From positions 19,152 through 83,151 of the IMG/VR virus record IMGVR_UViG_3300035698_034576: a DNA stretch of 64,000 nucleotides; one strand, 5' to 3'. Source of the DNA: a virus. Position numbers and translations under genes: made by a program. Under the pieces are notes generated by a model that did not search any database, was not told the DNA's origin, and was given only the letters and a program-made list of their open reading frames with translations. Shown one piece after another: positions 15,179 through 33,136 of this stretch (position 1 is the stretch's first letter; every line of letters begins with the position of its first letter).

Positions 15179-15307
15179 ATGAATAATAGAAAAAGTATCA
15201 ATGATTCCCCAAGATTCTTTAGAGTAAAAAAGGGACCAAAAGCAGGTGTCTATGTAAACAGTTTGGAAAACCGTCGACTAGATAGAGTTGGCAAAAAAAG
15301 TAAATAG
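15179..15307 (+). CDS. Stand-alone short protein carrying the head-region N-terminal motif (42 aa)
   Basis: Residues 17-40 (KKGPKAGVYVNSLENRRLDR then VGKKSK) match the KKTGxYxDTxENRKxGRVGQKY motif that begins many head-region proteins downstream. Here the motif is almost the whole protein, so it is either a minimal member or the remaining tag of a lost gene. The next gene starts 2 nt downstream. Confidence 0.55.
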   Translation: MNNRKSINDSPRFFRVKKGPKAGVYVNSLENRRLDRVGKKSK

Positions 15308-15309
15308 TT

Positions 15310-15542
15310 TTGAAAAATATAAAAAACTCTCCTTCTTTGGAGAAAAAAGTAAGAAAAAAAGAAGCTTCAAAAATTATAAAGATGGCAAAGAACTTGCCTT
15401 CCTCTGTTGAAGAAAAGGAGAGAGTGGAGGATCCTTTGATAGAAAGGAGTGATAACCTAAGTGTTTTTCTACAAGCTCACCAGAAGAGGCAATCGAATCA
15501 ATTGTTACAGCCCTTTTAAGACTTACTAAAGATAAGCTCTAA
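15310..15542 (+). pseudogene. Small helical gene with a one-base frameshift
   Basis: The main frame (TTG 15310 or ATG 15382) ends at 15519. In the -1 frame, after the T5 run at about 15463-15467, a well-formed helical C-terminus appears (SPEEAIESIVTALLRLTKDK) ending at TAA 15540, just before the terminator. One extra T would join both parts. The break could be real, a sequencing error, or a frameshift site; no classical slippery heptamer is seen. Confidence 0.5.
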
Positions 15543-15551
15543 AATCTTTGC

Positions 15552-15593
15552 AATCCCATCCCGTCAGATAGACTAAGGGTGGGATTTTTTTTT
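15552..15593 (+). terminator. Rho-independent terminator
   Basis: AATCCCATCCC and GGGTGGGATT pair around a short loop and are followed by a run of T. It closes the block containing the frameshifted gene. Confidence 0.85.
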
Positions 15594-15650
15594 GCTTAGA
15601 GATAGTTTTGAGTAATAATTTTAAAAAAAAGTGAAAAAAAACACTACAAA

Positions 15651-15684
15651 AGTTTTTTATATAAGAAATTTTGCTATCTTTACA
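15651..15684 (+). promoter_or_regulatory. Promoter, TTTTTTATAT type with conserved leader
   Basis: AGTTTTTTATAT, 12 nt, TATCTTTACA. The next 36 nt up to the ATG (15720) are nearly identical to those at 16238-16272, so promoter and leader form a duplicated module of about 75 nt. Confidence 0.8.
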
Positions 15685-15719
15685 GTGTAATCAGTGTTAA
15701 CAATTTAAAAATTTGTACC

Positions 15720-16202
15720 ATGAACATTTCAGAGACTTTATTAAAAGAAGTAAAAGAGAGCAATATGTATATAATGTTCTGCGACTACGATTCACTTGAT
15801 GAGGTGTCACTTGAAAAAGCAAATGCAATAAACATAGGATCTTTTGAGCAAGGGTTAATCCCCCTGGGAACTTTTTTGAAGTGTCCAAAGAAAAAAGAAG
15901 TGACTTTAGAGTGGATAATGAACAAAGTCAACAGAGACAGTTATTTTGTCAACCTAAGCCAAATAATTAAAAAGGCTTTGAATATAGACGGACTGTCAGT
16001 TTACCCCACCTCTTATGGAGTAGGTTTTTTCCGGCTGTTTGGAATGAATAAAAAAGAAGTTGACAGAGTTCATAATTTCTTCAAAGAAAATGGTATTGAA
16101 TACCGAAATGAGCTTTCCGATGCAAGATATGTATATCGATTCAAAGTATCAAAATCAAGGGATAATATAGAAAAATTAAAAAATATTAAAAAAAGTAGCT
16201 AA
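15720..16202 (+). CDS. Hypothetical protein (160 aa)
   Basis: Starts at the ATG directly after the conserved ATTTGTACC leader. The protein is alpha/beta with a C-terminal half (SYGVGFFRLFGMNKKEVDR) that looks like a compact RNA- or DNA-binding-like fold, but no family is recognised. A second promoter-leader copy follows at once. Confidence 0.6.
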   Translation: MNISETLLKEVKESNMYIMFCDYDSLDEVSLEKANAINIGSFEQGLIPLGTFLKCPKKKEVTLEWIMNKVNRDSYFVNLSQIIKKALNIDGLSVYPTSYGVGFFRLFGMNKKEVDRVHNFFKENGIEYRNELSDARYVYRFKVSKSRDNIEKLKNIKKSS

Positions 16203-16203
16203 A

Positions 16204-16237
16204 AGTTTTTTATATAAGAAATTTTGTTATCTTTACA
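16204..16237 (+). promoter_or_regulatory. Promoter, duplicate of the 15651 module
   Basis: AGTTTTTTATAT, 12 nt, TATCTTTACA, beginning within two nt of the stop of the preceding gene. It drives the run of four small genes starting at 16273. Confidence 0.8.
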
Positions 16238-16272
16238 GTGTAATCAATGTTAATAATTTAAAAGTTTGTACC

Positions 16273-16545
16273 ATGAAAAATTATTCAGTGGAATCAACAG
16301 AAAAAGCCCTGTTAAGAAAAGGCTTTCAACACAATGGTGGAAATAGTGGAATTGAATATTTCGGAAATGAAGAGCACTTTAATGAGGCGAATGTGTGCTC
16401 GCATTTCATTTATCACCACAATAACGGCCACTCTACCATAATGGCAACAGTTGAGAATTCGTTCAAAAATGGAAAGAGCTTTGCCACTATAAATGGAATT
16501 CACCCTGTTGAATGGTTTGAATCAGTTAAGAATGACATAAGCTAA
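16273..16545 (+). CDS. Hypothetical protein (90 aa)
   Basis: A small beta-rich protein with several His (EEHFNEANVCSHFIYHHNNG). It is first in a four-gene unit behind the promoter at 16204. No family recognised. Confidence 0.55.
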   Translation: MKNYSVESTEKALLRKGFQHNGGNSGIEYFGNEEHFNEANVCSHFIYHHNNGHSTIMATVENSFKNGKSFATINGIHPVEWFESVKNDIS

Positions 16546-16555
16546 AATTAAAGCC

Positions 16556-16861
16556 ATGAAGACAAAAATCGAAATGATGCAAAAAGAGTTGACTGAACGC
16601 ATGCTGATGCCATTGTTTGAAATACCAGCTATAAATATGGAAGATGGGAGTGAAAATTGGATATTGTTCGATGTATCCATTAGTCGAAATTCTATCTTTG
16701 CTCAACATATTGCCTTATCCTCAAAAGAGGAAAAGAGCAAAAAAATAGCTTACAAATCCATTCCCATTGACACGGATTTCTGTTTAGACCATCACTTAGA
16801 GCAATTGTATGAGCTTTGTATAGATGGCATAATTGAAGGAGACCTGTACAGACTGCAATAA
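16556..16861 (+). CDS. Hypothetical protein (101 aa)
   Basis: An acidic, mainly helical protein without recognised motifs, 10 nt after the preceding gene and 12 nt before the next, in the same unit. Confidence 0.55.
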   Translation: MKTKIEMMQKELTERMLMPLFEIPAINMEDGSENWILFDVSISRNSIFAQHIALSSKEEKSKKIAYKSIPIDTDFCLDHHLEQLYELCIDGIIEGDLYRLQ

Positions 16862-16873
16862 AACTTAAAAACC

Positions 16874-17344
16874 ATGAAAAACATAACCACAACTGATAGC
16901 TATTCCAAGCAGTTAATATTAAAAGCCCATTTCAATCTTACTAATAAAGCCGGGAGACCAGAATATTCTCCTACTTCAACGGAAATTCAATCTGAAATTG
17001 ATAAGATTATAAGTGGAAACAAAAGAGCTGACAGAGATTCAATAGCTGATTTTTTCCAAACTGATGATTTGACAACCTATAGAATTTTGCAAAATTTAAG
17101 CTGGGGATTCTTTTTAAACCATTTTGGAGAAAATGCTAAAGCCTATTGGGATAAAGCTCACCCATTCTTTTATCCTGGAAGTGCTTCAAAGGACTACCAT
17201 TCATTTAGCCTTTTGTTTATTTTGGACCATTTTGATTTATTTTCAAAATCCCAATTTTGGACCAGCGCGGGCTGGAAGTTTAACCCAAACATAAAAAAAA
17301 TGGTTTGGACTTATAATTCCGGCTATTCAAACATCACCATATAA
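16874..17344 (+). CDS. Hypothetical protein (156 aa)
   Basis: Contains a helical N-terminal part and a Trp/Phe-rich C-terminal half (LNPFWT-like pattern KSQFWTSAGWKFNPN). No catalytic motif. Third gene of the unit driven from 16204. Confidence 0.55.
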   Translation: MKNITTTDSYSKQLILKAHFNLTNKAGRPEYSPTSTEIQSEIDKIISGNKRADRDSIADFFQTDDLTTYRILQNLSWGFFLNHFGENAKAYWDKAHPFFYPGSASKDYHSFSLLFILDHFDLFSKSQFWTSAGWKFNPNIKKMVWTYNSGYSNITI

Positions 17345-17355
17345 AATTCAAGACA

Positions 17356-17652
17356 ATGAAAACAAAAATTCCTAAATCAGTAAGAGACTCTATTGAAGAA
17401 ATAAACGAAATGTTGCCAAAGATTCATGAAGCAGATGAATTTCCTTGTAGCTACTTTGGAGGCACCTGGCCAATTTATACAGGAATGACAAAGCCGATTG
17501 AAATTAAAAATCAGTTTGTTTATATCCGAGCCAACTCCGCTCATGGGAATATTGGGCCGGAAAGATTTAACTGTAATGATGAATATCAAGTTGATTCATT
17601 GAAATTCCACCTTAAACACATCAAGCAGTCTTATAAAAAAGTTTTGAAGTAG
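17356..17652 (+). CDS. Hypothetical protein (98 aa)
   Basis: Last gene of the unit before the head region. Residues KSVRDSIEEINEMLPKIHEA form a helix, followed by strands. No family recognised. The start of the next unit is marked by a different promoter type. Confidence 0.55.
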   Translation: MKTKIPKSVRDSIEEINEMLPKIHEADEFPCSYFGGTWPIYTGMTKPIEIKNQFVYIRANSAHGNIGPERFNCNDEYQVDSLKFHLKHIKQSYKKVLK

Positions 17653-17703
17653 CAAATTAAAGTAATTTAGAAAAGGGTTAGTTTCAATATCAATCTTACT
17701 AAA

Positions 17704-17724
17704 TTTTGTTATATTTATTAAAAA
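17704..17724 (+). promoter_or_regulatory. Late-type promoter
   Basis: TTTTGTTATATTTATTAAAA, with the -7-like TATATTTA at 17710. It differs from the upstream promoters by lacking the T-rich -33 box and by a conserved AATAAAA stretch just downstream. It opens the head region. Confidence 0.65.
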
Positions 17725-17732
17725 TAATTGAA

Positions 17733-18017
17733 ATGATTTATAAAAACGAAAGCATTCTAAAATCTTTTGGGATTGATATTGAAAAAGGAGGAAAGAAAAC
17801 TGGTGTTTATGCTGACACCCACGAAAACAGAAAAGCTGGAAAAGTTGGACAAAGTTACTTTAAAGAAAAAGAAGCCTCAAAAACTTCAACAAAGGGCCAA
17901 GATGAAGCATTTAAGCTTATCAACAATCTTCGCTCTAGTACTTTTAAAAATCTAAATGATGATGAGCTGTTTGAATTTAGAAAACAGATGGCAAATTATC
18001 TTGATCTGAAAATGTAA
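17733..18017 (+). CDS. Small head-region protein with N-terminal tag motif (94 aa)
   Basis: I start at ATG 17733, 15 nt after the -7 box, because an upstream start would lie inside the promoter. Residues 6-45 carry the shared motif: ILKSFGIDIEKGGKKTG, then VYADTHENRKAGKVGQSY. The rest is helical (DEAFKLINNLRSSTFKNLND). Nothing else is recognised. It abuts the next gene without a gap. Confidence 0.65.
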   Translation: MIYKNESILKSFGIDIEKGGKKTGVYADTHENRKAGKVGQSYFKEKEASKTSTKGQDEAFKLINNLRSSTFKNLNDDELFEFRKQMANYLDLKM

Positions 18018-18839
18018 ATGAGCCTTAATAAGAATAACATATTGAAATCGTTTATTATCCCGGACCTCAATAAGGGGATAAAAACAGGTATTTATCTTGA
18101 TACTCCCGAAAATCGAAAAAAGGGACGTGTGGGAATGAAGTATATAAAAGATAGTGTTTTGTATTATGATCAAAAACAAAACAAGCACATCTTTCGTGAG
18201 GTATTAGAAAATGAAAATGCAAAACACGATATACATTTATCTGGAGAAGAAAAAGTCCAGTACAATAAATTGTTTTTAGAAGGATCTCTTATCCGTCCAG
18301 CAAAAGGATATGGATTTTCAGGACTAAAGGAAAGTGATACAAAGAATTTAAAAATGTATCTAGCTAGCTATTGGCAAAACTACATGCCAAGTAAAACTGT
18401 TTCAAAAGAAGAGAATCTGAGAAAAGTTCCCTCTATGGTTAGAAGACTAAATTCAGTCAAGGAAGAGTACAATGACCAGCTTAAGGCAAAGCCCTGGTTA
18501 AAAGACAGTGCATTTGGCACCTTATATAATAGGTATGTAGGGAGAATAGATAGTTTGTTAGAAGAGACAGCAGACATTCAAAATAAAGCTAAAGAAACTT
18601 TAGATAGTATAGATATTTACAACCAAGAAAAGCATGACCTCGAGGTTATGAATAATGAGGAAGTGGATAATAAAATCTATCAACTTAAAGAAAAAGAGAA
18701 AGAAGTTTTGGCAGAAAAAAGAAAAAAAGAACTATCAGAAGCTCTCAAGGGAATAACTGATCCCGATAAAATAAACGAGATCAAAACCTCTTTTGAAATA
18801 AGCTGGTACAATGAAGGTCGTAAATATCATGGAGATTAG
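18018..18839 (+). CDS. Head-region protein with N-terminal tag motif and coiled coil (273 aa)
   Basis: The first 40 residues carry the shared motif (NILKSFIIPDLNKGIKTG, then IYLDTPENRKKGRVGMKY). The middle part is unrecognised and the last 80 residues are a charged coiled coil (IYQLKEKEKEVLAEKRKKEL). It starts immediately after the preceding stop. Its position before the portal gene and the shared motif suggest a virion or assembly protein; function unknown. Confidence 0.6.
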   Translation: MSLNKNNILKSFIIPDLNKGIKTGIYLDTPENRKKGRVGMKYIKDSVLYYDQKQNKHIFREVLENENAKHDIHLSGEEKVQYNKLFLEGSLIRPAKGYGFSGLKESDTKNLKMYLASYWQNYMPSKTVSKEENLRKVPSMVRRLNSVKEEYNDQLKAKPWLKDSAFGTLYNRYVGRIDSLLEETADIQNKAKETLDSIDIYNQEKHDLEVMNNEEVDNKIYQLKEKEKEVLAEKRKKELSEALKGITDPDKINEIKTSFEISWYNEGRKYHGD

Positions 18840-18861
18840 TAAAATTAATAAAATTAACAAA

Positions 18862-19359
18862 ATGGAACATGTTAGATTAAACATTCTTAAATCCTTCGGA
18901 ATTTCAGATATTAAAAAAGGTGGAAAGAAGACCGGAGTGTACGAAAACACTTCAGAGAACAGAAAGCTTGGCAGAGTCGGCCAAAAATATTCTAAGGAGA
19001 AAGATACTCCTGAAAATAGAAAGCTTGGTAGAGCTAGTAAGAATAACCCTGGGATACAGGGGAATCAATCCTCAAATAAAGCCCCTAGCGACAAGAGAGC
19101 CAATGAATTTTTTGGAGAATCTAAGCATGGACAAGCGATAGAGGCTCTAATGGATGGAACCTGGAATAGAGGAAAGGCTGAAAAGTATCTTGATGAGGTG
19201 AGTAGCGATGATAAGAAGTGGTCAAATATAATGAATAAAATATCTAGCGATCTTGGAATAGATTCTTCTAAGCATGACACCTATGGAAGTCAAACAAAGG
19301 AGATGATTGATAAAATGGGAGAGCTTTATGAAATTAGAGGTGGAGAGGGCAAAAAATAA
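18862..19359 (+). CDS. Head-region protein with doubled tag motif (165 aa)
   Basis: I place the start at ATG 18862 (MEHVRLNILKSFGI); an upstream start at 18811 would overlap the preceding gene. Residues 6-45 carry the full motif and residues about 50-60 a second partial copy (DTPENRKLGRASKNNPG). The C-terminal 80 residues are helical with SSDLGIDSSKHDTYG. It shares the N-terminal VRLNILKSFG with the gene at 23315. No function recognised. Confidence 0.6.
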   Translation: MEHVRLNILKSFGISDIKKGGKKTGVYENTSENRKLGRVGQKYSKEKDTPENRKLGRASKNNPGIQGNQSSNKAPSDKRANEFFGESKHGQAIEALMDGTWNRGKAEKYLDEVSSDDKKWSNIMNKISSDLGIDSSKHDTYGSQTKEMIDKMGELYEIRGGEGKK

Positions 19360-19399
19360 AGCAGCTTCAATAAGCATTGCAGAAAAATTGTAGCTTAAA

Positions 19400-19433: not shown

Positions 19434-19478
19434 ATCTAATTAGTACAAACAATTAAACATTAACTAAATGCCATCAAC

Positions 19479-19898: not shown

Positions 19899-19924
19899 TA
19901 AATAAAAATTGGTTAAGAAGTGTT

Positions 19925-21124: not shown

Positions 21125-22792
21125 ATGTTACAAAAAAATAAAAAATATTATTCGTATGGGGTAAGTGGATCAAAAAACCGCCCCAAAGACCTTATATCCT
21201 CTTTTGAATCTATTGAAGAGGCTAGACAAATCCTTGATATAAAGGAGCAAAAGATTTTTCAAAAATCATTGACCTCTGATAACCCAGCAGATATTATCAA
21301 AGCAATGACAAGGCTAAACGATCCAACTCAATACAGCCCGTCAAATACCTTTAATAATACAAACGTACATGGAGGCAAGTCTTTACTGGTAGATCCTTAT
21401 GGTCATCATTCAGCTAGTGGTTATCTCCAAAAAATCAGGCCTATAGATAATGGCATTTTGCGCAATATGGCAAAATCTCCATTTGTTAAAGCTATTGTTG
21501 AAACAAGAATAGAGCAAGTAGCTTCCTTTGGATCTGTATCAGAAGATAAAGATGATATTGGATGGATGATAGTTAAGAGGAATGGTGAAAAAGTAGGGGA
21601 TACCGATAGAGGGGAAATAGATAGAATTACTAAATTTGTTTCTGAAACAGGTGTTGATGAAAGTCGTTGGGTTAAAGATGATTTTGATAAGTTTCTTAGA
21701 AAAATAACTCAAGATACCCTTACTCTAGATGCATTGACATTTGAAATAGTAAGGACAAAAAATGATAAGCTTTACGAGTTTTTTGCAACGGACGCTGGCA
21801 CATTTTATTTTGCTGATCCAAGGGAACTATTTTCCCAAAAAACTGAAATAAATGGACACATGCCTTTGTATGTACAGGTTTTCCAGGGCCAAGTTATCAA
21901 TAATTATTATCCATGGGAATTAGCTTATGGAATTAGAAACCCCACCTCTGATATTTATCAAAACGGGTATGGTAGGTCGGAACTGGAGGATTTAATAAAT
22001 GTTGTCACTTGGCAATTGTATGGGATGCAATATACAGGTTCTTTCTTTTCAAGAGGATCTGCACCTAAAGGAATATTGAAGCTCTCTGGAAATGTGAATG
22101 AAAGAAGGTTAGCAGAATTTAAGCAACAATGGGCAGCACAAGTCCAAGGCATTAAAAATGCTTGGAAGACTCCGATTATGGAAGCAGATAAGATGGAGTG
22201 GGTTGATTTGCAACGAAACAACAGAGATATGGAATTCTCAAGCTGGATAGAATTCTTAACAAAGATTCTTTGTGGAGTTTATAAGATAGACCCTTCAGAA
22301 ATAGGAATGCCAATGTCTGGTGGGGAAGGGGGAAAAAGTATGTTTTCTGATGATACAAAGCAGAGGCAACTCTTTTCAAAAGAAAAAGGTTTGAAACCCC
22401 TATTGAAATTTATTGAGCAGAAAGTTGATAAATACATTGTTCAACAATTAAATCCTAACTATAAATTTATTTTTACCGGAGTTAACTTTAGTGATGCCAG
22501 TAAGGAGCTTGAGTCAGATATTAAAAAGGTTGGTAACTTTATGGGGTATAAAGAGATTAGAAGAAAGCACAATCTTCCTGATGATATTGGTAAAGATGAT
22601 TTGATTCTAAATCCTATCTTTATGCAGTCAAAAATGGCAGCACAGCAAGGAGGGAGCATGGGGGCAGAAGACCAATACAATGAAGAAGAATCTGGAGATT
22701 ATAATTCTGACTGGATGAATGAGGGGGAAAATCCTTTTTTAAAATCTATGAATGAAGCCACAGAAACGTTTATCCAAACACTGAAACCATGA
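21125..22792 (+). CDS. Portal protein
   Basis: The portal forms the dodecameric ring at one head vertex through which DNA enters and leaves. The 555-residue length is typical. Recognisable are the central segment with YGRSELEDLINVVTWQLYGM, then FFSRGSAPKGIL, and a later WIEFLTKILCGVYKIDPSEI stretch followed by a glycine-rich loop and a long helix, the order seen in HK97/SPP1-type portals. It is the first gene after a terminator and a late promoter, and its end overlaps the next gene by 4 nt. Confidence 0.88.
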   Translation: MLQKNKKYYSYGVSGSKNRPKDLISSFESIEEARQILDIKEQKIFQKSLTSDNPADIIKAMTRLNDPTQYSPSNTFNNTNVHGGKSLLVDPYGHHSASGYLQKIRPIDNGILRNMAKSPFVKAIVETRIEQVASFGSVSEDKDDIGWMIVKRNGEKVGDTDRGEIDRITKFVSETGVDESRWVKDDFDKFLRKITQDTLTLDALTFEIVRTKNDKLYEFFATDAGTFYFADPRELFSQKTEINGHMPLYVQVFQGQVINNYYPWELAYGIRNPTSDIYQNGYGRSELEDLINVVTWQLYGMQYTGSFFSRGSAPKGILKLSGNVNERRLAEFKQQWAAQVQGIKNAWKTPIMEADKMEWVDLQRNNRDMEFSSWIEFLTKILCGVYKIDPSEIGMPMSGGEGGKSMFSDDTKQRQLFSKEKGLKPLLKFIEQKVDKYIVQQLNPNYKFIFTGVNFSDASKELESDIKKVGNFMGYKEIRRKHNLPDDIGKDDLILNPIFMQSKMAAQQGGSMGAEDQYNEEESGDYNSDWMNEGENPFLKSMNEATETFIQTLKP

Positions 22793-23328
22793 GAGAAAAT
22801 ATACTAAGGTCCTTTAAAGAGTATGACTTAATGAAAGGAAAGAAAACCGGAATATATACAAACACTCCTGAAAACAGAAAAAAGGGTAGAGTTGGTCAAA
22901 AATATTCTAAAGAAGATGAAAAAGAAGAAAGTCCAATAACTGTAGAGGTAGATGATGAAAGAACTATTTATCATTATGGAAATAAAGGCTCTTTAATTAT
23001 GACAGAAACAACTCCAGAATACGAATTTAAAGATGATATAACAGAGGAGAAAATGAATGAGCTAGGATTGGAGGAAGATGATTTTATTTTCAAAATTGAA
23101 CATATTGAGATTAATGACCAAGAAAAAGGTAAGGGTTTTGCAAAAAAATTGATGCAAAGGGCTATGAAGGACTTTAGTTCAAAAACTATTTATCTTAATG
23201 CATCTCCTATGGGATTTAAAGGATTGGATCTTGATGATTTAACAAAATTTTATGAATCCTTTGGTTTTTCTGTTTTTAAAAATGATAGCAATAACAACTT
23301 AATGATAAAACAAAATGGATCACATTAG
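22789..23328 (+). CDS. Tag motif fused to a GNAT acetyltransferase-like domain (179 aa)
   Basis: Residues 3-42 carry the shared motif (LMKGKKTGIYTNTPENRKKG, then RVGQKYSKED). Residues about 80-175 look like a GNAT domain: IEHIEINDQEKGKGFAKKLM matches the acetyl-CoA loop (QxxGxG/A type), then a strand IYLNASPMG, and FYESFGFSVF near the end. GNAT enzymes transfer acetyl groups to proteins or small molecules; the substrate cannot be told. The tag suggests that the enzyme may be carried in the virion. It overlaps the portal by 4 nt and the next gene by 14 nt. Confidence 0.7.
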   Translation: MRENILRSFKEYDLMKGKKTGIYTNTPENRKKGRVGQKYSKEDEKEESPITVEVDDERTIYHYGNKGSLIMTETTPEYEFKDDITEEKMNELGLEEDDFIFKIEHIEINDQEKGKGFAKKLMQRAMKDFSSKTIYLNASPMGFKGLDLDDLTKFYESFGFSVFKNDSNNNLMIKQNGSH

Positions 23329-23722
23329 ATTAAACATTCTAAAGTCCTTTGGCATTGACATTGAAAAAGGTGGAAAGAAGACGGGGATTTATACTGACAC
23401 TTACGAAAATAGAAAAAAGGGAATAGTAGGCCAAAAATATTCTAAGGATGAAATCGCAAAGGAGAATACCTACTTCAATACGTATGGAGAGGCAATTAGC
23501 TATGCCTATGAGCAAGCATTTAAGAAATTTAAAGTAGATGAGGACGATTGGTTTATGGCAATGTCTACTGGAGGAAAGCCTTCTCGTAATAAAACAAAGA
23601 GTGGAATTATAGCCCTTTATGACAAGGAGACTGGGAAAGAGTCTAAAAAAGCTTTGTCTATTCAGGTTTACAACATGGACAGGGATAAAAAATCATTTGA
23701 ACTAAATTGGTACATAAGCTAG
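23315..23722 (+). CDS. Tag-motif protein (135 aa)
   Basis: Residues 4-48 carry the clearest copy of the motif: IRLNILKSFGIDIEKGGKKT, then GIYTDTYENRKKGIVGQKYS. The remaining 85 residues form a small unrecognised alpha/beta domain (TYGEAISYAYEQAFKKFKVD). The N-terminus is nearly identical to that of the gene at 18862 although the rest differs, so the tag moves independently of the domain behind it. Confidence 0.65.
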   Translation: MDHIRLNILKSFGIDIEKGGKKTGIYTDTYENRKKGIVGQKYSKDEIAKENTYFNTYGEAISYAYEQAFKKFKVDEDDWFMAMSTGGKPSRNKTKSGIIALYDKETGKESKKALSIQVYNMDRDKKSFELNWYIS

Positions 23723-24598: not shown

Positions 24599-24599
24599 A

Positions 24600-25109
24600 A
24601 TGAATACAGAATATATCCAAGATTATAAAAATAATATATCAAAAAACATATTTAATAGTTTTGATATATTAAAAGCTTTTGCCCCGGAGGGCTCTCGTAA
24701 ACAAACCAAAAGAGGAGAGTGGTATGTAAAACAAGGAGGTAAATGGGTTTATGAGAAAAAAGGAGGGAGAGCCTCTAAAGAAACCGAAGATACTAGTTCA
24801 CAAGAGGGAGGATCGTCCGAGGGAAATATAAAATCTAAATCAAGCCGAAATATGGGCTTTTTAAGAGAACTTTCTGACAGTGAGTTTAAAAATTTAGGCA
24901 TGATTGGTTTTGATAAAATATCAAGATATAAAGCTGTTTATGCAAAAGCCGCTCATGAGATAATGGAGGAGGGCATAAGGCTTGGATATGTTGAGAAAAA
25001 AGATTATGGAAAAGGAAAGGGTAAATACACAACAACAGAGGCTTCAGGCAAAATGTCCCTATCTTTGATAATTCAGAAAATAAAGGATAATGAGTCTATT
25101 AAAGATTAG
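24600..25109 (+). CDS. Head-region protein with a different basic N-terminal segment (169 aa)
   Basis: Residues 22-55 read FDILKAFAPEGSRKQTKRGE then WYVKQGGKWVYEKKG, a short basic beta-hairpin-like segment that differs from the main tag but begins with the same ILKxF. A Ser/Gly-rich linker follows, then a small helical domain with FDKISRYKAVYAKAAHEIM. Unrecognised family. Confidence 0.55.
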   Translation: MNTEYIQDYKNNISKNIFNSFDILKAFAPEGSRKQTKRGEWYVKQGGKWVYEKKGGRASKETEDTSSQEGGSSEGNIKSKSSRNMGFLRELSDSEFKNLGMIGFDKISRYKAVYAKAAHEIMEEGIRLGYVEKKDYGKGKGKYTTTEASGKMSLSLIIQKIKDNESIKD

Positions 25110-25126: not shown

Positions 25127-26515
25127 ATGGAATTTGAAAGAATAGACAAACAGGAAACTGCCCTTTTTAATCTAGAAAAATCTAGAAAAACAGGCTATTA
25201 TAAAGATAATCGCGAAAATCGTCTAAAAAATAGAGTAGGTCAGAAATATACCATAGATGTAACTGACGAAAAAGATCTTGGAAAAGTACAACGCCAACTA
25301 GAAGAAGCCCGTAACAGAAAAGATATTTACAATCCTTCAGAAGAAAATGACCAGGAGATAGAGAGGCAATTTTTGGAAAATTTCGAAAAATTCGCTAAAG
25401 AAGATGCTGAGTGGCTTAAAGAAAATCCAATGGGGTCTCGCACAAGAGATTGGAGAAGGAACGATGAAATTATCAGAGCAAATCTTTTATTAGAAGAGGC
25501 AGAAGCTTCTAAACAAATTTCTTTAGAAACTGACCAAGATAAAGAGGCTTTTATACATGCTTCTCAGGTTACAAGAGCAGAGAGCCAATTTTTTATGGGA
25601 GAACTTATTGATAAAATTAAGCTCAATCCTGAAAACTCAACTTTCAAGGAAGAATTGGTTTGGCTAACAACTAAAGATCATGAGAGAGTCAGAAGATTCA
25701 ATATCTTAGCTAGGGAAAACAATATAACTCAATTAGAACCCTTTAGATTTGTAAAAGAGACCAATAAACCTGTGCTTGTCTGGGATTCAGAAGAGAAGTA
25801 TTCTTCATTAACAAATAAAGGACCAAAAGTTAATAAAGAGAATCTTAAAAGATCAACATATAAGGATTCTTTAGGGGCTTTTGAAGCGTGGGAAACCGAA
25901 GGCAGTAAATTAAGTTTTCCTTGGGAGTCTGCCAAAATAGGAGGTTCTGTTTCATATAATGTTGATGAAGCTAGTGAAGCTATTAGAGATTATCTGAGTA
26001 GGCTCCCTATTTTAGAGGTTGATCCTTGGGATGTTGAAGTGTTTTTAAAATCTCCTCATGATTTTATAAAAGAAAAAGGCCATTTTAATCTAATAGATAG
26101 TGAAGACAAAATTTTTGGAAGTATAATTATATCCACAAAAGAAAAAGATTTTTTATTCCTCAGAAAAATTAACGATCACTATGTAAAGGACAGTTCTAAG
26201 AAAAAGACTAGCATAGGTAAGTCTTATGTTGTAAAATTATTACCTATACTTAATCCTATTTCAGGACTTAATTATAAGCATCCAATATCAGAGTTGCCTT
26301 TAATTGTTGTTCCAGAAGTGGCTACAATATCTGAAAGTAGATTGGATAGAGCTAAAAGAAAAATTAGAGAATATGATTTAGATGAATTGTCTAGGCTTAT
26401 TGAGGAAGAGGAAGCTTTGCCAAAATATAAGCAAGATAAAGATGATCTTGACCTTTTATATTTTAAAAGGACTAAATATTTTGAATTTAAAAGGGAAATC
26501 GAAAAATATACATAA
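25127..26515 (+). CDS. Large tag-motif protein of unknown function (462 aa)
   Basis: Residues 14-42 carry the motif (FNLEKSRKTGYYKDNRENRL, then KNRVGQKYTID). Two long helical regions (residues 45-110 and about 410-460) enclose a beta-rich middle with VDPWDVEVFLKSPHDF. No catalytic motif is visible. It is followed by the P-loop ATPase gene after one nt. A structural or cargo role is inferred from the tag and position only. Confidence 0.6.
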   Translation: MEFERIDKQETALFNLEKSRKTGYYKDNRENRLKNRVGQKYTIDVTDEKDLGKVQRQLEEARNRKDIYNPSEENDQEIERQFLENFEKFAKEDAEWLKENPMGSRTRDWRRNDEIIRANLLLEEAEASKQISLETDQDKEAFIHASQVTRAESQFFMGELIDKIKLNPENSTFKEELVWLTTKDHERVRRFNILARENNITQLEPFRFVKETNKPVLVWDSEEKYSSLTNKGPKVNKENLKRSTYKDSLGAFEAWETEGSKLSFPWESAKIGGSVSYNVDEASEAIRDYLSRLPILEVDPWDVEVFLKSPHDFIKEKGHFNLIDSEDKIFGSIIISTKEKDFLFLRKINDHYVKDSSKKKTSIGKSYVVKLLPILNPISGLNYKHPISELPLIVVPEVATISESRLDRAKRKIREYDLDELSRLIEEEEALPKYKQDKDDLDLLYFKRTKYFEFKREIEKYT

Positions 26516-26516
26516 A

Positions 26517-29093
26517 ATGAAAACTGATTTAATTAGTAAGAGCAAAGGACTGGGAATAGCTAGATCATTTGAAAATGATATTGAGAAGGCTAAAGCTTTC
26601 CCTCCAGGGACAATTAAAAATTATAATGGCAAGAGATATATTAAAGTATCAGATGCAAAAGGTTTGGAATGGAAAGACCAATGGAAAATGATCCATAGTA
26701 AAAAACAAATAGAGGAAACTCTTGAAGAGTTTGGTAATGTTCCTGGACTCTCTGGTAAACTTTCTGGATTGCCTGCTGATGCTGAATCAAAACCAAGCGC
26801 TCCCTCTGTTGAAAAAAAGGAAACCTCAGGAAATGATTCAAGTAATGATCCAGTTATAGGCACTTTAAATAAGGTATCTACATCAAAAGATCATTCTCCT
26901 TTGACGAGACTTGAAAATATGTACAGCTATGGGTTGGAAGATCCAATGACTTTAGCTACATTTTCTGGAGCCCATTATTCTGAAGTTCAGAAATTTTTAG
27001 CAAATAAAAAAGAAACTGAAATTAAATCTGCTTTTACAGAAGTTGAAAAAGAAAGGATTGCCGCAGCGACAAGAAAGAAAAGACTTTCTCTTTATGCGGA
27101 ACTAGCTGGCATTTCTGTTCATGATAGATGGAGAACGTATGATACCATTCTTGAAAACACTATGGAGGGCAAGTTCAAATCTATGATTGCATTTGGATCA
27201 GGTGGAGTAGGAAAAGCTCAGCCTTTGTACAGTAAGGTATTAACTCCTGAAGGCTTTGTAAAAATGGGGGAATTAAAAGTTGGAGATGAAGTTGTAACTC
27301 CTAAAGGGAGTTTATCTAAAATCTCAGATATTTATCCACAAGGCAAACGGGCTGTTTATGAATTAACCATGGAGGATAACACTAAAATTAGATCTGATGT
27401 GGAACATTTATGGAAAGTTCTAGACACAGAGGATGATTTTAGTGAAAAAGTATTATCCCTGGAAGACATAGTGGAAAAAGGCTTAAAAACTGAAAATGGC
27501 TGGAGATTTGGAATTCCATTTATTGATAAGCCTTTTGGAGCTCCAAAAAATATTGATTTGCCGGTTAACCCTTGGCTTATTGGATGGCTACTTGGAAATG
27601 GTTGCTTTTCAAACAATCTTTCCTTTGATATTAATCCATTAGATAAAGAATTCCTTTTAAGCAAAATTGAAGAGTATCTTCCAAAAAATTTAAAGATCTC
27701 TAAGAAAATAAGCCCCACCAAGTTCAGTATCATTGGGAATGATAAATTAGATGAAAAAGAATTAGAGCTAGCAATCAATCAGCTGTCCCTGCCTGAAAGA
27801 GAAAACTGTTCTGCATTTATTCCTGGGGTATACAAAAGATCTTCTGTTGAACAGAAGCTCCATATTATACAGGGCTTAATGGATTCAGCTGGATATATAG
27901 ATCAAGCTGGAATGCTAAAATTTTCCTCTCCATATAAGATATTGGCTCAGGATTTTTATGATTTAGTTAAATCATTTGGAAGAATGGCTTATATTGAAGA
28001 AAAGACCGTATCATTTTTTGGAACTGATTCAAGAGAAAATTGGATAGTATCTTTTGATTTAGGAGAAGGGTACCTTCCTTATTCCTCCCCGGCAAGATCT
28101 AATGAATACCGTCCTAAGGATAAAGAAGGATCCATGCCAATAGTGGATATTTCGTTTATAGCCATAGAAGACACCCAATGTATTTCAATAGAAGATGCAG
28201 ATAAAATGTATATCACAGATGGTTACATTCAAACCCATAATACATGGAACATGCAATTAGCAACTAAGAAATTTGTTGTTAATAGGGAAACAGGAATTAT
28301 TATGAGAAAAGAGGATTTCAAGAAAACTTTTGGTCCAGATGCTACTTGGGATGATTCTCACATTAAAACAGTTCCAAAAAATGATTACCGGGAACTGCGC
28401 CAGTTTGATCCTACAAAAAAGTTTAGTGCTTCAGATTACGAATATGTAGTTATAGGGGGTTCAATATCCCCAGTTATGACATATTCAAGTATCTATCAAC
28501 ATAACAAGAAGATTATTGTTTTTGATGATATTGATAAGATCCTTAAGAATAGAGAGGGGCTTGATGTTCTTAAAGGGGCTTTGGATGGAGAAATAAAAGA
28601 TATTTCATGGGGTACTTCAACAACTCCTAAGGATATGCTAGGAGTTGATGTTCCTAAAACCTTTAAGTTTGAAGGCAGGGCTATATTTATAACCAACCTA
28701 ACCAATGAACAACTTAAGACTCCAGAGCTACAACCTATCACTCAGTCTAGAGCTGAGCCTGTGGATTTAACAATGACAAAAGAGGAAACTATTCAAAAGC
28801 TACAGACTTTGGTTAAGACTATGGAAGTTAAAGATGCGGCTGGAGAGGTTATTGATGCTTCCCCTGAGGACAAGCAACAGGCCTTAGACTATATGATTGA
28901 AATGAAGGATATAATTCATGCAGGATACTTCAATGCTAGAAAGCTAGGAGCGCTAACAAAACTTCTTAAGATTTCCAAAAATGATACCGAACTGTTTAGA
29001 AAAATGGCTTCATCTTCTCTACAGGTCCCTACAGGCGAGCAAATACCTGAGGATTGGATTTTCAATTATGACGATGATGAAGGAATAGTTTAA
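26517..29093 (+). CDS. P-loop ATPase with a class 3 intein in its Walker A motif (858 aa)
   Basis: I start at ATG 26517, one nt after the upstream stop; a longer start at 26382 would overlap the previous gene by 134 nt. The N-terminus has a basic segment (FPPGTIKNYNGKRYIKVSD) like those of other head-region proteins. Walker A is GSGGVGK at residues 227-233, interrupted by a 342-residue intein, and continues with Thr576; Walker B is IIVFDDIDKI. The host protein without intein is about 516 aa, of AAA type, with a sensor-like TNLT stretch. It is not a clear terminase: no nuclease domain follows. The role in the head region is unknown. Confidence 0.75.
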   Translation: MKTDLISKSKGLGIARSFENDIEKAKAFPPGTIKNYNGKRYIKVSDAKGLEWKDQWKMIHSKKQIEETLEEFGNVPGLSGKLSGLPADAESKPSAPSVEKKETSGNDSSNDPVIGTLNKVSTSKDHSPLTRLENMYSYGLEDPMTLATFSGAHYSEVQKFLANKKETEIKSAFTEVEKERIAAATRKKRLSLYAELAGISVHDRWRTYDTILENTMEGKFKSMIAFGSGGVGKAQPLYSKVLTPEGFVKMGELKVGDEVVTPKGSLSKISDIYPQGKRAVYELTMEDNTKIRSDVEHLWKVLDTEDDFSEKVLSLEDIVEKGLKTENGWRFGIPFIDKPFGAPKNIDLPVNPWLIGWLLGNGCFSNNLSFDINPLDKEFLLSKIEEYLPKNLKISKKISPTKFSIIGNDKLDEKELELAINQLSLPERENCSAFIPGVYKRSSVEQKLHIIQGLMDSAGYIDQAGMLKFSSPYKILAQDFYDLVKSFGRMAYIEEKTVSFFGTDSRENWIVSFDLGEGYLPYSSPARSNEYRPKDKEGSMPIVDISFIAIEDTQCISIEDADKMYITDGYIQTHNTWNMQLATKKFVVNRETGIIMRKEDFKKTFGPDATWDDSHIKTVPKNDYRELRQFDPTKKFSASDYEYVVIGGSISPVMTYSSIYQHNKKIIVFDDIDKILKNREGLDVLKGALDGEIKDISWGTSTTPKDMLGVDVPKTFKFEGRAIFITNLTNEQLKTPELQPITQSRAEPVDLTMTKEETIQKLQTLVKTMEVKDAAGEVIDASPEDKQQALDYMIEMKDIIHAGYFNARKLGALTKLLKISKNDTELFRKMASSSLQVPTGEQIPEDWIFNYDDDEGIV
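27216..28241 (+). other. Class 3 intein with an inactive-looking LAGLIDADG endonuclease
   Basis: The element begins with Ala234 (AQPLYSKVLTPEGFVKMGEL) rather than Cys or Ser, and has the W-C-T triad of class 3 inteins: Trp299 in VEHLWKV, Cys555 in TQCISIED, and +1 Thr576 after QTHN. Between them are two LAGLIDADG-like motifs, WLIGWLLGNGCF and IIQGLMDSAGYI. The catalytic Asp is replaced by Asn361 in the first and Ala458 in the second, so DNA cleavage is probably lost while splicing looks intact. Confidence 0.85.
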
Positions 29094-29113
29094 ACTAATT
29101 AAAAATTAAGCAA

Positions 29114-29281
29114 ATGACATCAAAAGAAGATTTTAAAAATCAATACAGAAATAGTTCCATTGAGGCTTTGGACAGCATTATTGCTGGGATGCTTGCTAGC
29201 AAATCCGACAGCAATTTGTTATATGCCCTTACAGAGTTAGTTGATGAAAAGTTAGAAGAAGAAAGACTGATTTCTTCTTGA
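29114..29281 (+). CDS. Small helical protein (55 aa)
   Basis: ATG at 29114, 20 nt after the ATPase gene, reads to TGA at 29279. Two helices with an acidic end (ELVDEKLEEERLISS). It fills the gap between the ATPase and the protease genes; function unknown. Confidence 0.5.
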   Translation: MTSKEDFKNQYRNSSIEALDSIIAGMLASKSDSNLLYALTELVDEKLEEERLISS

Positions 29282-29323
29282 CGATTCAGAGCTAATTGAC
29301 GATTAATCTTAAAACACAATCTA

Positions 29324-31051
29324 ATGTTTGGAACAGACCTAAGGGGAAAGCGCCAGCCTATTGGTACAACTACTGTTCGCGGAGACGGTTCAAGGTATAT
29401 AAAAATATGTCTTGAACCGTATGGCGATAACTGGCTTAGAGTAGTAATTCCTGGAGAGACAAAAAGAATTATTGAATCTTTAGATACCAAAGGAACAGCT
29501 ATTCGTAAGTATGATAAGCCTTTAAATGGAGTAAGACTTTTGGACAAGCTAATTGTTGATTTTTATAAAGATAAAATAGGCTATTCAAAAGAAGCTGCTG
29601 AATCTATGCCAGGGAAGTTTAAAGCTATTGGAGGTTTTGAAGGAGCTTCTGTATATTCTTTTTCTAATTTTTTCACTCAAATAGCAATGGCTAAGAGGCA
29701 GAATAAAAAATTAGATAGCAGAGCGGCAATAAGAAAAGCAGAAATTATAGCTTGGGAAAAACAAGTTGCTTTAGTTGGGGAGGATGGAGCTGGGACCGAA
29801 CCCTTAGATTATGATTTTGAAGGGGATAAAACTCCAATCAGAGAAGTCTCTAAAGAAGAAATAGAGGGTTTGTCTTTAACAATGGATGAAGCTTTAAAAA
29901 CTCTTCGCAGAGGGGTCACTTTTGACGGAGAGCAAAAAGAGGCTTACTGGGGAGGATTAGAAAAAGCTGGAAAATGGCCTGAAAAATATAGGATAATGCC
30001 AGAAATTGTGGCTGAAAGAGCTGCCCTTGAAGACAATTTTAAAAAAGCTTTTAAGGGAGAGCATGACTGGATTGTTAAGGAAACATTTGATCAAAATATA
30101 GATATTTACTTTGATAGATACTTCAGAAACTTCCGTGATCAAATAATGGTAGATGAAGGAAAGAGAATATCTAAAGAATACGAATTAGACCTTGATGGAG
30201 ATACAATAACTTTTTATGATAAGTTTTATAATATAATGCATAATCTTAAAGAGTTTGAAATAGACAGCTTAGCTAAACTTAGATTCAAAAGTAAGATTGG
30301 CAAAAATCTTAATGGAAAGTGGAAAAAAGAACATATTGCTATATTAGAAAATACTGAATTAATTTCCCAAAGTCTTCCTTTAGGCCATTTCATAAATAAT
30401 CCTCGGCTCAGCACTTTTCAGGCCCCAGATTATTTTATTGGAAGTGGATATGCCTCTTATAATCAGTCATCAAATACTATTGAGTTTTCAAGACAATTTA
30501 TGAACAATGCTTCTGCCCAAGGACACTTGACAGATCCTTTAGAATTTTTTTCAGTTGCTCCCCATGAGATAGGACATGCTGTTTCTAGGTATTTCAGGAA
30601 AGATATTCATCCTTTAGGGTATCAAGAATGGGTAAGTTTATGTGGGTGGGATAACAGGCAAGAAAATTTGCATGCAACAGGTGATGATAGAGATATTGAA
30701 AGACTAGGAGAGAACAATAGTATCAAGTTGATAACAGAGTATGCTAATAAGTCCCCTGAAGAAGCTTTTGCGGAATATTATTCATGTTATTTCCAGAATA
30801 AAGAAAATATTGACAATTGGCTTGATACAAATGATCCCTCTTTTCTGTCCAAAACACAAAGGCCTAAAATGAACTATATTTCTTTTTGGAAAGAGGATGT
30901 TAGGACAGGAAAAATGCATAAAATGAGTTATCCTAAAGTAAGTCGTGAGAATGGCATTTATTACAGAAATTCTGTTGTTGGAACTTCTCAAATGACTTCA
31001 AACAAAGAAATATTTAGTTTCATGAGAGAGGTCATATTTGACAATGTTTAA
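29324..31051 (+). CDS. HExxH metallopeptidase-like head-region protein (575 aa)
   Basis: The signature HEIGHAVSRYF is at residues 414-424 (His414, Glu415, His418) and SPEEAFAEYYSCYF, about 65 residues later, offers the third zinc ligand, as in gluzincin-type zinc peptidases. The N-terminus has a basic beta segment (RGKRQPIGTTTVRGDGSRYI) similar in style to those of the ATPase and the gene at 24600. The gene lies among head genes and overlaps the NUDIX gene, so a virion-associated protease or an assembly protease is possible. The separate prohead protease at 40009 makes maturation of the head a less likely job. Confidence 0.7.
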   Translation: MFGTDLRGKRQPIGTTTVRGDGSRYIKICLEPYGDNWLRVVIPGETKRIIESLDTKGTAIRKYDKPLNGVRLLDKLIVDFYKDKIGYSKEAAESMPGKFKAIGGFEGASVYSFSNFFTQIAMAKRQNKKLDSRAAIRKAEIIAWEKQVALVGEDGAGTEPLDYDFEGDKTPIREVSKEEIEGLSLTMDEALKTLRRGVTFDGEQKEAYWGGLEKAGKWPEKYRIMPEIVAERAALEDNFKKAFKGEHDWIVKETFDQNIDIYFDRYFRNFRDQIMVDEGKRISKEYELDLDGDTITFYDKFYNIMHNLKEFEIDSLAKLRFKSKIGKNLNGKWKKEHIAILENTELISQSLPLGHFINNPRLSTFQAPDYFIGSGYASYNQSSNTIEFSRQFMNNASAQGHLTDPLEFFSVAPHEIGHAVSRYFRKDIHPLGYQEWVSLCGWDNRQENLHATGDDRDIERLGENNSIKLITEYANKSPEEAFAEYYSCYFQNKENIDNWLDTNDPSFLSKTQRPKMNYISFWKEDVRTGKMHKMSYPKVSRENGIYYRNSVVGTSQMTSNKEIFSFMREVIFDNV

Positions 31052-31583
31052 AAATATTTTTACGCAAACAAATTTCAACTACTTTCACTTGATGAACAAG
31101 TCAATAGAATCAAAACATTTATCTAAGGAAAATAAAGGGATCACAAAAGCTGTGATTGGAATAGTTTTTAATAAAGAGGGCAAAGTTTTACTAGGCTTTT
31201 CCTCTCTTAATGATAACTTAAGAAAAGATAAGTGGTGTTTTCCTGGGGGAGGACGTGAGAAAGGAGAGAGTGATTATCAAGCTGGGGTTAGAGAAGTAAA
31301 AGAGGAAACAGGTATTACAGCTAAACCTTTGAATCTATCCCCCTTTATAGACACAGAGGTTCCAAATATAACTTTTGTTATTATGGTAAAAACAGGAGGA
31401 AAGCTACAACCTAATGAAGAATTTCATTATTTAGACTGGTTTTCTCCTGACAGCCTGCCAAAAAACATTGTAAAGTCAAATGCTAAAATAGTAAATATTG
31501 CCATCAAAACAATAGAAGAGGCAACTAAGAATATTTCTTCATTTTCCTTCATTGGCAAAGATTCAGTAATAGGGAGTTTTTAA
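31044..31583 (+). CDS. NUDIX hydrolase (179 aa)
   Basis: A complete NUDIX box, GGREKGESDYQAGVREVKEE then TGI (Gx5Ex7REUxEExGU), is present at about residues 70-93, inside a normal NUDIX fold (AVIGIVFNKEGKVLLG and later FHYLDWFSP). These enzymes hydrolyse nucleoside diphosphates linked to another moiety; candidates are oxidised dNTPs, ADP-ribose, NAD or RNA caps. I start at ATG 31044, inside the end of the protease gene; a TTG two codons upstream is possible. The first 30 residues precede the domain and may be an extension. Location among head genes is unusual for a metabolic enzyme. Confidence 0.88.
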   Translation: MFKNIFTQTNFNYFHLMNKSIESKHLSKENKGITKAVIGIVFNKEGKVLLGFSSLNDNLRKDKWCFPGGGREKGESDYQAGVREVKEETGITAKPLNLSPFIDTEVPNITFVIMVKTGGKLQPNEEFHYLDWFSPDSLPKNIVKSNAKIVNIAIKTIEEATKNISSFSFIGKDSVIGSF

Positions 31584-31619
31584 CTTAAAGGACTTACAGA
31601 ATTCAATAAAACTGTGAAT

Positions 31620-31775
31620 ATGAAAGAACCAAAAGTTACATCAAAAGATAGGGCTAAATTCCCTAAAGTTCAGGACGCTTATGAAAATGCCTTTAAAAAA
31701 TCTTACCAGGAAATGATAAAAGCTTCCCTGACTGAACTTATGGATAAGTTGGGCAAAGCTATTAAAGGAGTTTGA
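31620..31775 (+). CDS. Small helical protein (51 aa)
   Basis: ATG at 31620 to TGA at 31773. A single amphipathic helical stretch (AYENAFKKSYQEMIKASLTE). It is the last gene before a late-type promoter. Function unknown. Confidence 0.5.
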   Translation: MKEPKVTSKDRAKFPKVQDAYENAFKKSYQEMIKASLTELMDKLGKAIKGV

Positions 31776-31792
31776 AAACTATTGACCTATGA

Positions 31793-31815
31793 CAATTTTT
31801 ACTATATTTAATAAA
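31793..31815 (+). promoter_or_regulatory. Late-type promoter
   Basis: TTTTTACTATATTTAATAAA with TATATTTA at 31803-31810, followed by the usual AATAAAA. It precedes the gene at 31832 by 21 nt. Confidence 0.55.
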
Positions 31816-31831
31816 ATTAATACATAAGAAA

Positions 31832-33136
31832 ATGGACGGTTTAATTAACTTAGAAGATAAAAGAAAGATAATAGCTTCAAATTTTATAGAGTTTGAACCT
31901 AATATCTTAAAAGCCAGAGCTGGAAGATATGCTGATACATCAGAAAACCGATCTAAAAAAAGAGTTGGTGAGCAGTATGGATCTAAGAAAGAAGAGGAAG
32001 TTAAGGAGGGGAGGGATCCTAAAAAAGAGGACCCAGAAACATCAAGATCAAAAAAAGAAGAGGACCCAAAGAAAGAGGGTAAAGAAAAAGTAGCAAAAAC
32101 AACATCAGAACATGCAAAAGACACTTCAACAGAAGATCTTCAGAATTATGTAGATAATTTCAACCCAGATTCAGTTGTATTCAATAATCAAGAGCTTTTT
32201 GATGAAGCAAAAAAGGAGCTTGCTTCAAGGTCAAAAGAAGGAAAAAGTAAAACAGAAGTTGGTATGATGAAGATTGAAGATAAAATATCTTCTTTAAAAC
32301 AAACCATTGAGGCTACCAGCTCCTTATTAGACACCCTTCCAGAGGGAAAAATGAAAGAAGGAATTGCTCTTAGCATAGAGCAGGGGGAAGATGAGATAAG
32401 AAGCCTAGAAAGTGAAAAAACTTCTCTTGAGAAAAAAAATAAAAAAGAGAAAGAGCCTAAAATTTCACCAGAAGCCTTCATTGCAACATCATCAGTGAAT
32501 GATCTAGCCAAGAAATCTAGCGAACTTGCAAAAGAATCTTCAGAAGCTTTATCAGAAGGAAATTATGAGCTGGCTTCAGAATTAGCAAAACAATCAAGTC
32601 AATATGCACAGAGTATATCTGATAAGATGGGAGAAGCCTCTAAATCTAATGATAAGGAAAAGCTAATAAAAGAAAGAGCTTCCCTTGTTAAGAAGCAAGA
32701 TAAGTTACTTGGTCAAGTTAGCTCAACTTCAAAGGGTAGGCAACAAACAACCTTAAATAACGCTAGAATAAAAGAAATTGATGCAGAGCTTAGCGGTAGT
32801 CCCAAGGAGAAACCTTCTGAAAAGAGCGGGGATAGGGTTACTCTAAATGATCACATGTTAAAAGAGGCAAAGGATAAACCTTCTAAAAAAAATATGATTG
32901 ATGCCAAAATAGACAACAAAGAAGACTTTATCGATTCTATTCAAGAAGAAGACAATGAAGAGATTAATAAAATTTGGAAAAAAGTTTTAGAAGAGGAAGT
33001 TGTATCAGCTTTAGATAAAGAAGGCATAAATGACACTCAAGAAGCCAGAGATGATATTATGAATAACGATAAATTTCATGATACTATTTTTGGAAATGCT
33101 TATACTAAAGCTTTTAAAGAATATTCAAAAAAATAA
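31832..33136 (+). CDS. Tag-motif protein with long charged coiled coil (434 aa)
   Basis: Residues 24-50 carry a divergent tag (NILKARAGRYADTSENRSKK, then RVGEQYGSKK). A Lys/Glu/Ser-rich low-complexity region follows (residues 50-90), then long coiled coils and a C-terminal helical domain. The composition resembles scaffolding-like or internal head proteins. It stands directly before the MuF-like gene. The true scaffold is more likely the gene at 41043, next to the capsid gene. Confidence 0.6.
   Translation: MDGLINLEDKRKIIASNFIEFEPNILKARAGRYADTSENRSKKRVGEQYGSKKEEEVKEGRDPKKEDPETSRSKKEEDPKKEGKEKVAKTTSEHAKDTSTEDLQNYVDNFNPDSVVFNNQELFDEAKKELASRSKEGKSKTEVGMMKIEDKISSLKQTIEATSSLLDTLPEGKMKEGIALSIEQGEDEIRSLESEKTSLEKKNKKEKEPKISPEAFIATSSVNDLAKKSSELAKESSEALSEGNYELASELAKQSSQYAQSISDKMGEASKSNDKEKLIKERASLVKKQDKLLGQVSSTSKGRQQTTLNNARIKEIDAELSGSPKEKPSEKSGDRVTLNDHMLKEAKDKPSKKNMIDAKIDNKEDFIDSIQEEDNEEINKIWKKVLEEEVVSALDKEGINDTQEARDDIMNNDKFHDTIFGNAYTKAFKEYSKK

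Follow-up and report, generated by a model that had tools for sequence, protein, structure and literature searches.

The window analysed here is a stretch of 64 kb out of an 83,151-base virus record (IMG/VR record IMGVR_UViG_3300035698_034576, positions 19,152 to 83,151), and positions below are those of the window. It carries the head genes of a contractile-tailed phage, with a tail sheath gene after that of the major head protein. Eight plus-strand genes of this region, at 15179, 17733, 18018, 18862, 22789, 23315, 25127 and 31832, share a short conserved block, hereafter the tag, exactly where a first-pass annotation had placed it (Table 1). The longest open reading frames (ORFs) of two of them begin upstream of the annotated starts (17706 for 17733 and 18811 for 18862).

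With a profile built from the eight window copies, these score 43.5-56.6 bits, and nowhere else in the 83,151-base record does it yield a convincing match. A second profile (35 rows, 5 from the window) recovers the three window copies outside its rows, at 22789, 23315 and 15179. The gene at 18862 indeed carries one and a half copies, a full one and then the half copy KDTPENRKLGR, and the nearly bare copy at 15179 is a 42-residue ORF without cargo. The statement that NILKSFGI and KGG usually precede the tag was slightly too strong: [NS]IL[KR]SF stands before five of the eight copies and KGG before three, and other leaders, LEKS at 25127 and ILKA at 31832, take the place of ILKSF. Over all pairs, 167 of 305 identical residues use different codons, which argues against a recent DNA duplication and places the conservation at the protein level. 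The domains behind the tag differ, as had been noted, at the sensitivity of BLASTP: among 12 tagged proteins (seven from the window and five from Bacteroides phage DAC19; 66 pairs, E<=0.01), 61 pairs match at full length and none after removal of the sequence as far as 24 residues beyond the start of the tag. The proteins at 18862 and 23315, singled out earlier as alike only in their N-termini, show no BLASTP match behind the tag and thus have the N-terminus alone in common. On the profile scores, the codon differences and the pairwise BLASTP result, we reject a chance origin of the motif.

Table 1. Tagged genes and head genes of the window. A slash marks a predicted cut.
Feature	Coordinates	Strand	Remarks
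Bare tag, 42-residue ORF	15179..15304	+	tag ~15239-15298; without cargo behind
Tagged small protein	17706..18017	+	leader ILK/SFGIDIEK; tag ~17793-17858; ATG alternative start 17733
Tagged 273-residue protein	18018..18839	+	leader ILK/SF; tag ~18081-18143
Tagged protein	18811..19359	+	ATG alternative start 18862; tag ~18925-18990; half copy ~19000-19032
Portal protein	21125..22792	+	phrog_12, PF04860; tag cluster on both sides
Tagged GNAT-like protein	22789..23328	+	leader ILR/SF; tag ~22840-22905
Tagged 135-residue protein	23315..23722	+	leader ILK/SFGIDIEK; tag ~23375-23440
Second-tag protein	24600..25109	+	ILKA, then GEWYVKQGGKWVYEKKGG
Tagged 462-residue protein	25127..26515	+	LEK/SRKTG; tag ~25187-25252
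phrog_1250-family protein	26382..29093	+	intein-like insertion (sub-threshold Pfam); second tag after IEKA
Tagged 434-residue protein	31832..33136	+	ILK/ARAG; tag ~31913-31981
Intein-interrupted head protein	33158..35263	+	phrog_15127; intein Pfam match above cut-off
Head maturation protease	40009..41004	+	phrog_1028 (E 1.7e-44); 8 cut-like motifs
Scaffold-like protein, 293 residues	41043..41924	+	by position only, without family match; 14 [ILF]xK[SA] motifs
Major head protein	41977..43428	+	phrog_752 (E 2.7e-78); LQK/ALSAG near N-terminus

The tag is closely preceded by a motif that resembles a protease cut site. Defined as [ILVFM]xK[ASG] within 12 residues upstream of the tag's first tyrosine, this cut-like site is present in 57 of 59 distinct tags (mean 5.6 and maximum 14 in shuffled sequences; mean 8.1 and maximum 18 in random windows of the same proteins), and its [AS]-only version in 40 (2.8 shuffled, 5.8 in random windows). 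By eye, the two misses (L007 and L055) have a similar motif slightly farther upstream. A site of the T4 kind, [LI]xE, precedes nine of the 59, which is the level of chance (8.8 shuffled). Left out of the 59 were 22 loci (14 distinct tags) of look-alikes resembling what we take to be HK97 gp10, 13 other loci (12 distinct tags, among which the cut motif is absent) and two rows lacking the core of the search pattern, one being the half copy and the other the window copy at 31832, where ILKA is present; the excluded groups were chosen by eye, after the sequences had been seen. The first-pass annotation had described the tag as N-terminal, and this holds for 33 of the 59, found within the first 60 residues, and not for the 26 that lie beyond residue 60. 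An ILKSF-like leader, a motif defined after the leaders had been looked at, stands before 21 of the 33 N-terminal tags (shuffled 2.0) and before just 4 of the 26 farther in; outside the window it precedes 16 of 26 N-terminal tags (shuffled 1.5, maximum 6).

With the exception of phage A511 and of the scaffold-position ORF of DAC19, tagged proteins have this cut motif in common with the scaffold and the capsid protein. The scaffold-like protein of the window has 14 sites (shuffled mean 1.3, maximum 6) and its protease 8 (mean 1.1, maximum 5), in each case above all 2000 shuffles. In SPO1, 9 sites fall within the 245 residues of the scaffold, which is rich in [ILF]xKS. The A511 record annotates the mature capsid protein from after residue 23 (EDALK/SFTTG), an annotation that reportedly rests on N-terminal sequencing, and lined up with this cut by eye are LQK/ALSAG in the window phage and LNK/ALEAG in SPO1. 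From 30 protease loci, 22 capsid N-termini were recovered (one further locus, L114, gave the wrong protein and seven gave none); all 22, which come from tag-bearing records and include four near-identical pairs, have [ILV]xK/A at the lined-up site. Protease and scaffold form a single protein with 8-16 sites in 13 of these 22 loci. As the motif is common to tag leader, scaffold and capsid protein, we read it in the leader as a site of the head maturation protease. The predicted cut precedes the tag, so the tag would remain on the mature protein and the ILKSF-type leader would be clipped. The earlier proposal of a tag tied to the prohead and its protease thus agrees with the cut-like motif and with the co-occurrence of the protease gene described next, but its assumption that the motif itself is removed does not fit the position of the predicted cut.

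The phrog_1028 protease is encoded in 30 of 52 tag records as against 1 of 33 controls, which are records retrieved by the same DNA patterns and judged unrelated; the sole control record with the protease itself carries tags. Among records of at least 30 kb, the protease is found in 24 of 27 tag records vs 1 of 9 controls. The 52 tag records include 13 of the group labelled marine below and two doubtful ones (L046, L047), and the controls included one true tag record (L062). All 70 tags from 31 protease-bearing records (near-identical pairs G032/G037, G040/G044 and G042/G049 kept) lie on the protease strand, 61 of them upstream of the gene, including 56 at no more than 25 kb from it. When only records of at least 40 kb are counted, 41 of 55 tags lie within 25 kb upstream vs 15.8 expected, and 5000 random placements, made without regard to clustering, reach 28 at most. 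The confinement to the head region suggested by the window does not extend to DAC19, where 84-90 kb separate four of five copies from the protease gene.

A profile search in other phages, which the first-pass annotation had proposed, finds the motif again in Bacteroides phages and uncultured phages. The closest capsid proteins to that of the window are those of Bacteroides phages SJC03 and DAC16/19/20/22/23 (48% identity), and the same six are the only convincing tblastn matches for the tag among 50,697 phage records. The next capsid relatives are those of Chryseobacterium phage MA9V-3 (42.5%), in which the profile finds no tag of this first kind, of faecal phage MT835500 (37%), in which it finds one copy, and of SPO1-type phages (36%), whose cultivated members show no tag at tblastn sensitivity. 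Dozens of uncultured phages also carry the tag. Three DNA patterns retrieved 39, 21 and 35 stretches from viral contigs, and the profile gave 121 matches at E<=0.01 over the ORFs of the collected loci, false families included. The maximum is nine tags per record, and the richest is the window's own record. We rejected a plasmid-borne motif (17 plasmid records, only E ~1 to 10, mostly DUF790 proteins) and a host motif (3 stretches in genome contigs, two from one unrelated family and one gammaproteobacterial without a cut site). The latter, on a contig of a metagenome-assembled genome (L049 421-957, minus strand), has two tag-like repeats with a low-complexity linker between them. The likeness of PDB chain 4dmg to the start of the tag (E=1.5) is attributed to chance.

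Enzyme-like proteins do occur among the tagged set, as had been anticipated. They include NUDIX proteins (L018, L027, L044), a zeta toxin in DAC19 and in its relative L093, and the GNAT-like protein of the window. The GNAT-like assignment of 22789 is qualified by a Pfam match (E 5.4e-6) that lies below the curated cut-off; GNAT folds are also its best PDB matches in a fold search (E 0.011) with a low-confidence model. For 23315, the fold search gave no usable match. The predicted models of these two single sequences have mean pLDDT values of 47 and 56, and pLDDT values below 50 over the tag in both are weak evidence that it is disordered. Across 57 tagged proteins there are 12 Pfam families in total, with a few fusions (NUDIX and tag, protease and tag). 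A minor head protein family and phrog_1250 are also among those that bear the tag. Several relatives of untagged window proteins carry the tag: a relative of the head maturation protease (L031, 38% over 211 residues), a relative of the intein-split head protein in which cut-like site and tag lie close to the C-terminus (L098, 35% over 265) and a relative of the 29324 protein with an internal tag (L042, 27% over 597). In L010, L011, L018, L057, L060 and L007, the tag forms the end of a recurring domain of ~110 residues (K[SA]..F.RP.QV.W), with variable sequence or none behind it.

A second kind of tag, G..[KR]T..G..YIK..D.WK..KG, is dissimilar to the first and is likewise N-terminal. A 354-residue protein of DAC19 with the first tag is related both to the window 26382 protein (39% over 195 residues), whose gene probably starts near 26517 and which carries the second tag as GTIKNYNGKRYIKV, and to an MA9V-3 protein that carries it as GARKTFGGREYIKTADGWK. 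Relatives of first-tag proteins that bear the second tag are encoded at window 24600-25109 and 26382-29093, in MA9V-3 (L008) and in L189. Searching for the second tag with a strict DNA pattern gave no match; a five-row profile detects it in 8 of 35 records, two of them having supplied rows to that profile, and it occurs five times in MA9V-3. The motif [ILF]xK[ASG] precedes it in 6 of the 8 places readable with the search pattern (15 places in total), L185 and L193 being the two without. One phage of 124 kb has nearly the same leader, QIQKSF..NELEKA, before the first tag on one protein and before the second tag on another.

At the level of sequence, then, there is a tag with a cut-like motif directly before it, which co-occurs with the protease gene and has been exchanged between relatives. 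We consider it likely that leader and tag form a cassette that combines a cut site for the head maturation protease with a retained tag marking head cargo for delivery. The leader, with one or two [ILF]xK/[SAG] sites, would be cut by the phage's own head maturation protease, and the tag, G[VI]Yx[DN]TxENRKxGRVGxxY, would be kept at the new N-terminus. Internal tags would head a module released from a longer protein, for example in the protease-tag and NUDIX-tag fusions. Leader and tag may recruit cargo into the assembling prohead, where, as the shared motif suggests, the protease would trim it at K/[SAG]. Judging from the kinds of domains and from T4 (PMC9026906, consulted in excerpt), the trimmed cargo would stay with the DNA and probably be ejected into the host. 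The tag is favoured as the address because it is conserved, exchangeable and present away from N-termini, and the leader because of the T4 precedent. We think that the partner of the tag is the scaffold or the inner capsid surface.

A number of observations weigh against this cassette. The 4 sites of the window's portal and the 3 of its capsid protein do not exceed the shuffled range, and neither do the only 2 sites of the ORF before the capsid gene in DAC19 (L107) and in L118. The ALK/S of A511 fits only in its K/S part, with alanine at the hydrophobic position, and the scaffold-like gp85 of the same phage has zero strict sites. Tags lie near the C-terminus in L007, L062 and L098, so that a role as the mature N-terminus fails there. 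Three tag records of at least 30 kb are without the protease, and 9 of the 70 tags, including four of DAC19's five, are 26-101 kb from its gene. Because some records are near-duplicates and tags occur in clusters, the counts are less independent of one another than the null models presuppose. Of the 14 distinct gp10-like look-alikes, which form one family, 9 have the cut motif. It is a conserved tag-like loop, KKAYADTARNRRLNRVGKKY (L075, L079, L080 and others), that makes these proteins match the DNA patterns; they were set apart by eye and used as controls. The loop may have converged on the tag or may hint at what the tag imitates. Finally, a group that we call marine, a label guessed from its T4-like look, has 8 distinct tags on proteins with EWAYRVPDG-type domains, none with the K site.

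In five of these eight marine tags, [LI]xE stands in the same place (2.3 shuffled, maximum 6), which is not significant since shuffles reach 6. By eye, [LVM]xE is present in all eight and in four further relatives, all on one homologous leader. The presence of UvsX, SSB and DnaB genes nearby in two contigs suggests that the group consists of T4-like phages. A T4-type protease or capsid protein was not seen in its contigs, which are fragments of at most about 27 kb where the search controls were silent too, so that absence is not implied. We treat a swap of the site to LxE in this group as a lead and not as a result. A broader reading, in which the retained tag, and not the clipped leader, is a portable head address with at least two interchangeable versions that serve the same machinery and has crossed to phages with a different protease and an LxE site, is in our view less likely than not.

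Parts of this pattern could be explained otherwise. The conserved block might be just the P' side of the protease's recognition sequence, serving substrate choice with no later role. Its position close behind the cut-like motif in nearly every tag agrees with this, but the scaffold and capsid protein have sites without the block, a dissimilar second block fills the same place and the marine group keeps the block without the K site; we consider this explanation improbable. Rich in Arg and Lys and unstructured in the low-confidence models, the tag might also be a basic patch that binds DNA or RNA and holds cargo on the packaged genome, with entry into the head through DNA binding. Its invariant Y, N, V and G exceed what charge alone would call for, however, D/N and E are common too, and a sequence search of the PDB gave no known binding domain (one match, at E=1.5), and such a patch seems unlikely to us.

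That the tag serves docking or chaperoning apart from heads, for instance in host takeover complexes in the infected cell, would suit the distant DAC19 copies and a cargo that looks host-directed (zeta toxin, GNAT-like). It fits poorly with the cut-like site, the link to the protease and the presence of the tag on a head-protein relative and on a protease itself, and we regard it as quite improbable. Several copies in one cluster, one of them bare, and a half copy are what would be expected of an N-terminal exon that moves or duplicates, passing from gene to adjacent gene by recombination and having no common role. Such an exon is very hard to reconcile with conservation at the protein level behind different codons, with the same layout in distant phages and with protease co-occurrence, and it is the least probable of these explanations.

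The window holds further features around the tagged genes. The intein-interrupted head protein at 33158..35263 is referred to here as MuF-like, a label of our own. The ribonucleotide reductase at 543-4097 has an intein-like insertion, by eye or sub-threshold. The protein at 29324-31051 has a HEIGH metalloprotease-like motif (weak sub-threshold Pfam match). A NUDIX hydrolase gene lies within the head region at 31038-31583, and others are found at L005 15237 and L008 35296; a NUDIX gene adjoins the protease gene in MA9V-3, is one gene away from it in DAC19 and is fused to the tag in other phages. A transposase (phrog_506) is encoded on the opposite strand (43843-45012, minus), between the capsid protein and later head and tail genes.

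Sequence alone cannot recognise most proteins delivered with phage DNA. If the cassette marks them, one short profile would predict the injected set of a broad phage group together with the cut position of each protein. Six of the tag-bearing phages were isolated on Bacteroides thetaiotaomicron, and one could test whether the 20-residue label loads a chosen protein into heads, as T4's targeting sequence does. In the open-licence literature, capsid-targeting propeptides are known already; we did not find there a description of a conserved label that stays on the protein after the cut, is common to unrelated cargo in many phages and has a second version, and none of six motif strings is present in those texts.

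Like SPO1 and A511 (Herelleviridae), the tag-bearing phages have the same protease and capsid families and K/[SA] at the lined-up place of the capsid protein. They differ in the tag itself, for which tblastn found no counterpart in cultivated SPO1-type phages, and in the scaffold, as A511 gp85 is without strict sites. Encapsulins are not phage structures and are not known to load their cargo with a protease step. Their cargo-loading peptides are similarly short sequences that bring enzymes into a protein shell (PMC11202242, in excerpt). Polyvalent proteins and MuF-linked effectors, whose enzyme domains are encoded beside virion genes and are thought to be packaged and injected (Iyer et al. 2017; PMC5512222), resemble the tagged proteins in that setting. 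Unlike the multidomain polyvalent proteins, the latter mostly have one or no recognised domain behind one label, and the available part of that account describes no such shared label.

In phage SPN3US, the protease gp245 processes head proteins at AxE, some of which are ejected, and the N-terminal propeptides comprise two of 20 and 24 residues and others of 111-254 (PMC10052503, in excerpt). As in SPN3US and phiKZ, a short motif would be the processing site of head proteins here, together with a shared retained tag of a kind that the accessible portion of the SPN3US report does not describe. The closest parallel in layout is T4, where gp21 cuts after L/I-x-E and the capsid targeting sequences of IPI-III and the Alt propeptides are removed (excerpted text of PMC9026906). 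Like T4, the window phage has a short N-terminal sequence common to its putative head cargo, beside a cut-like motif that is also on scaffold and capsid protein. Unlike in T4, as far as that excerpt goes, the site is [ILF]xK/[SAG], the most conserved part lies after the predicted cut where T4's shared part is removed, and the tag, of which there is a second version, can also lie internally or close to the C-terminus.

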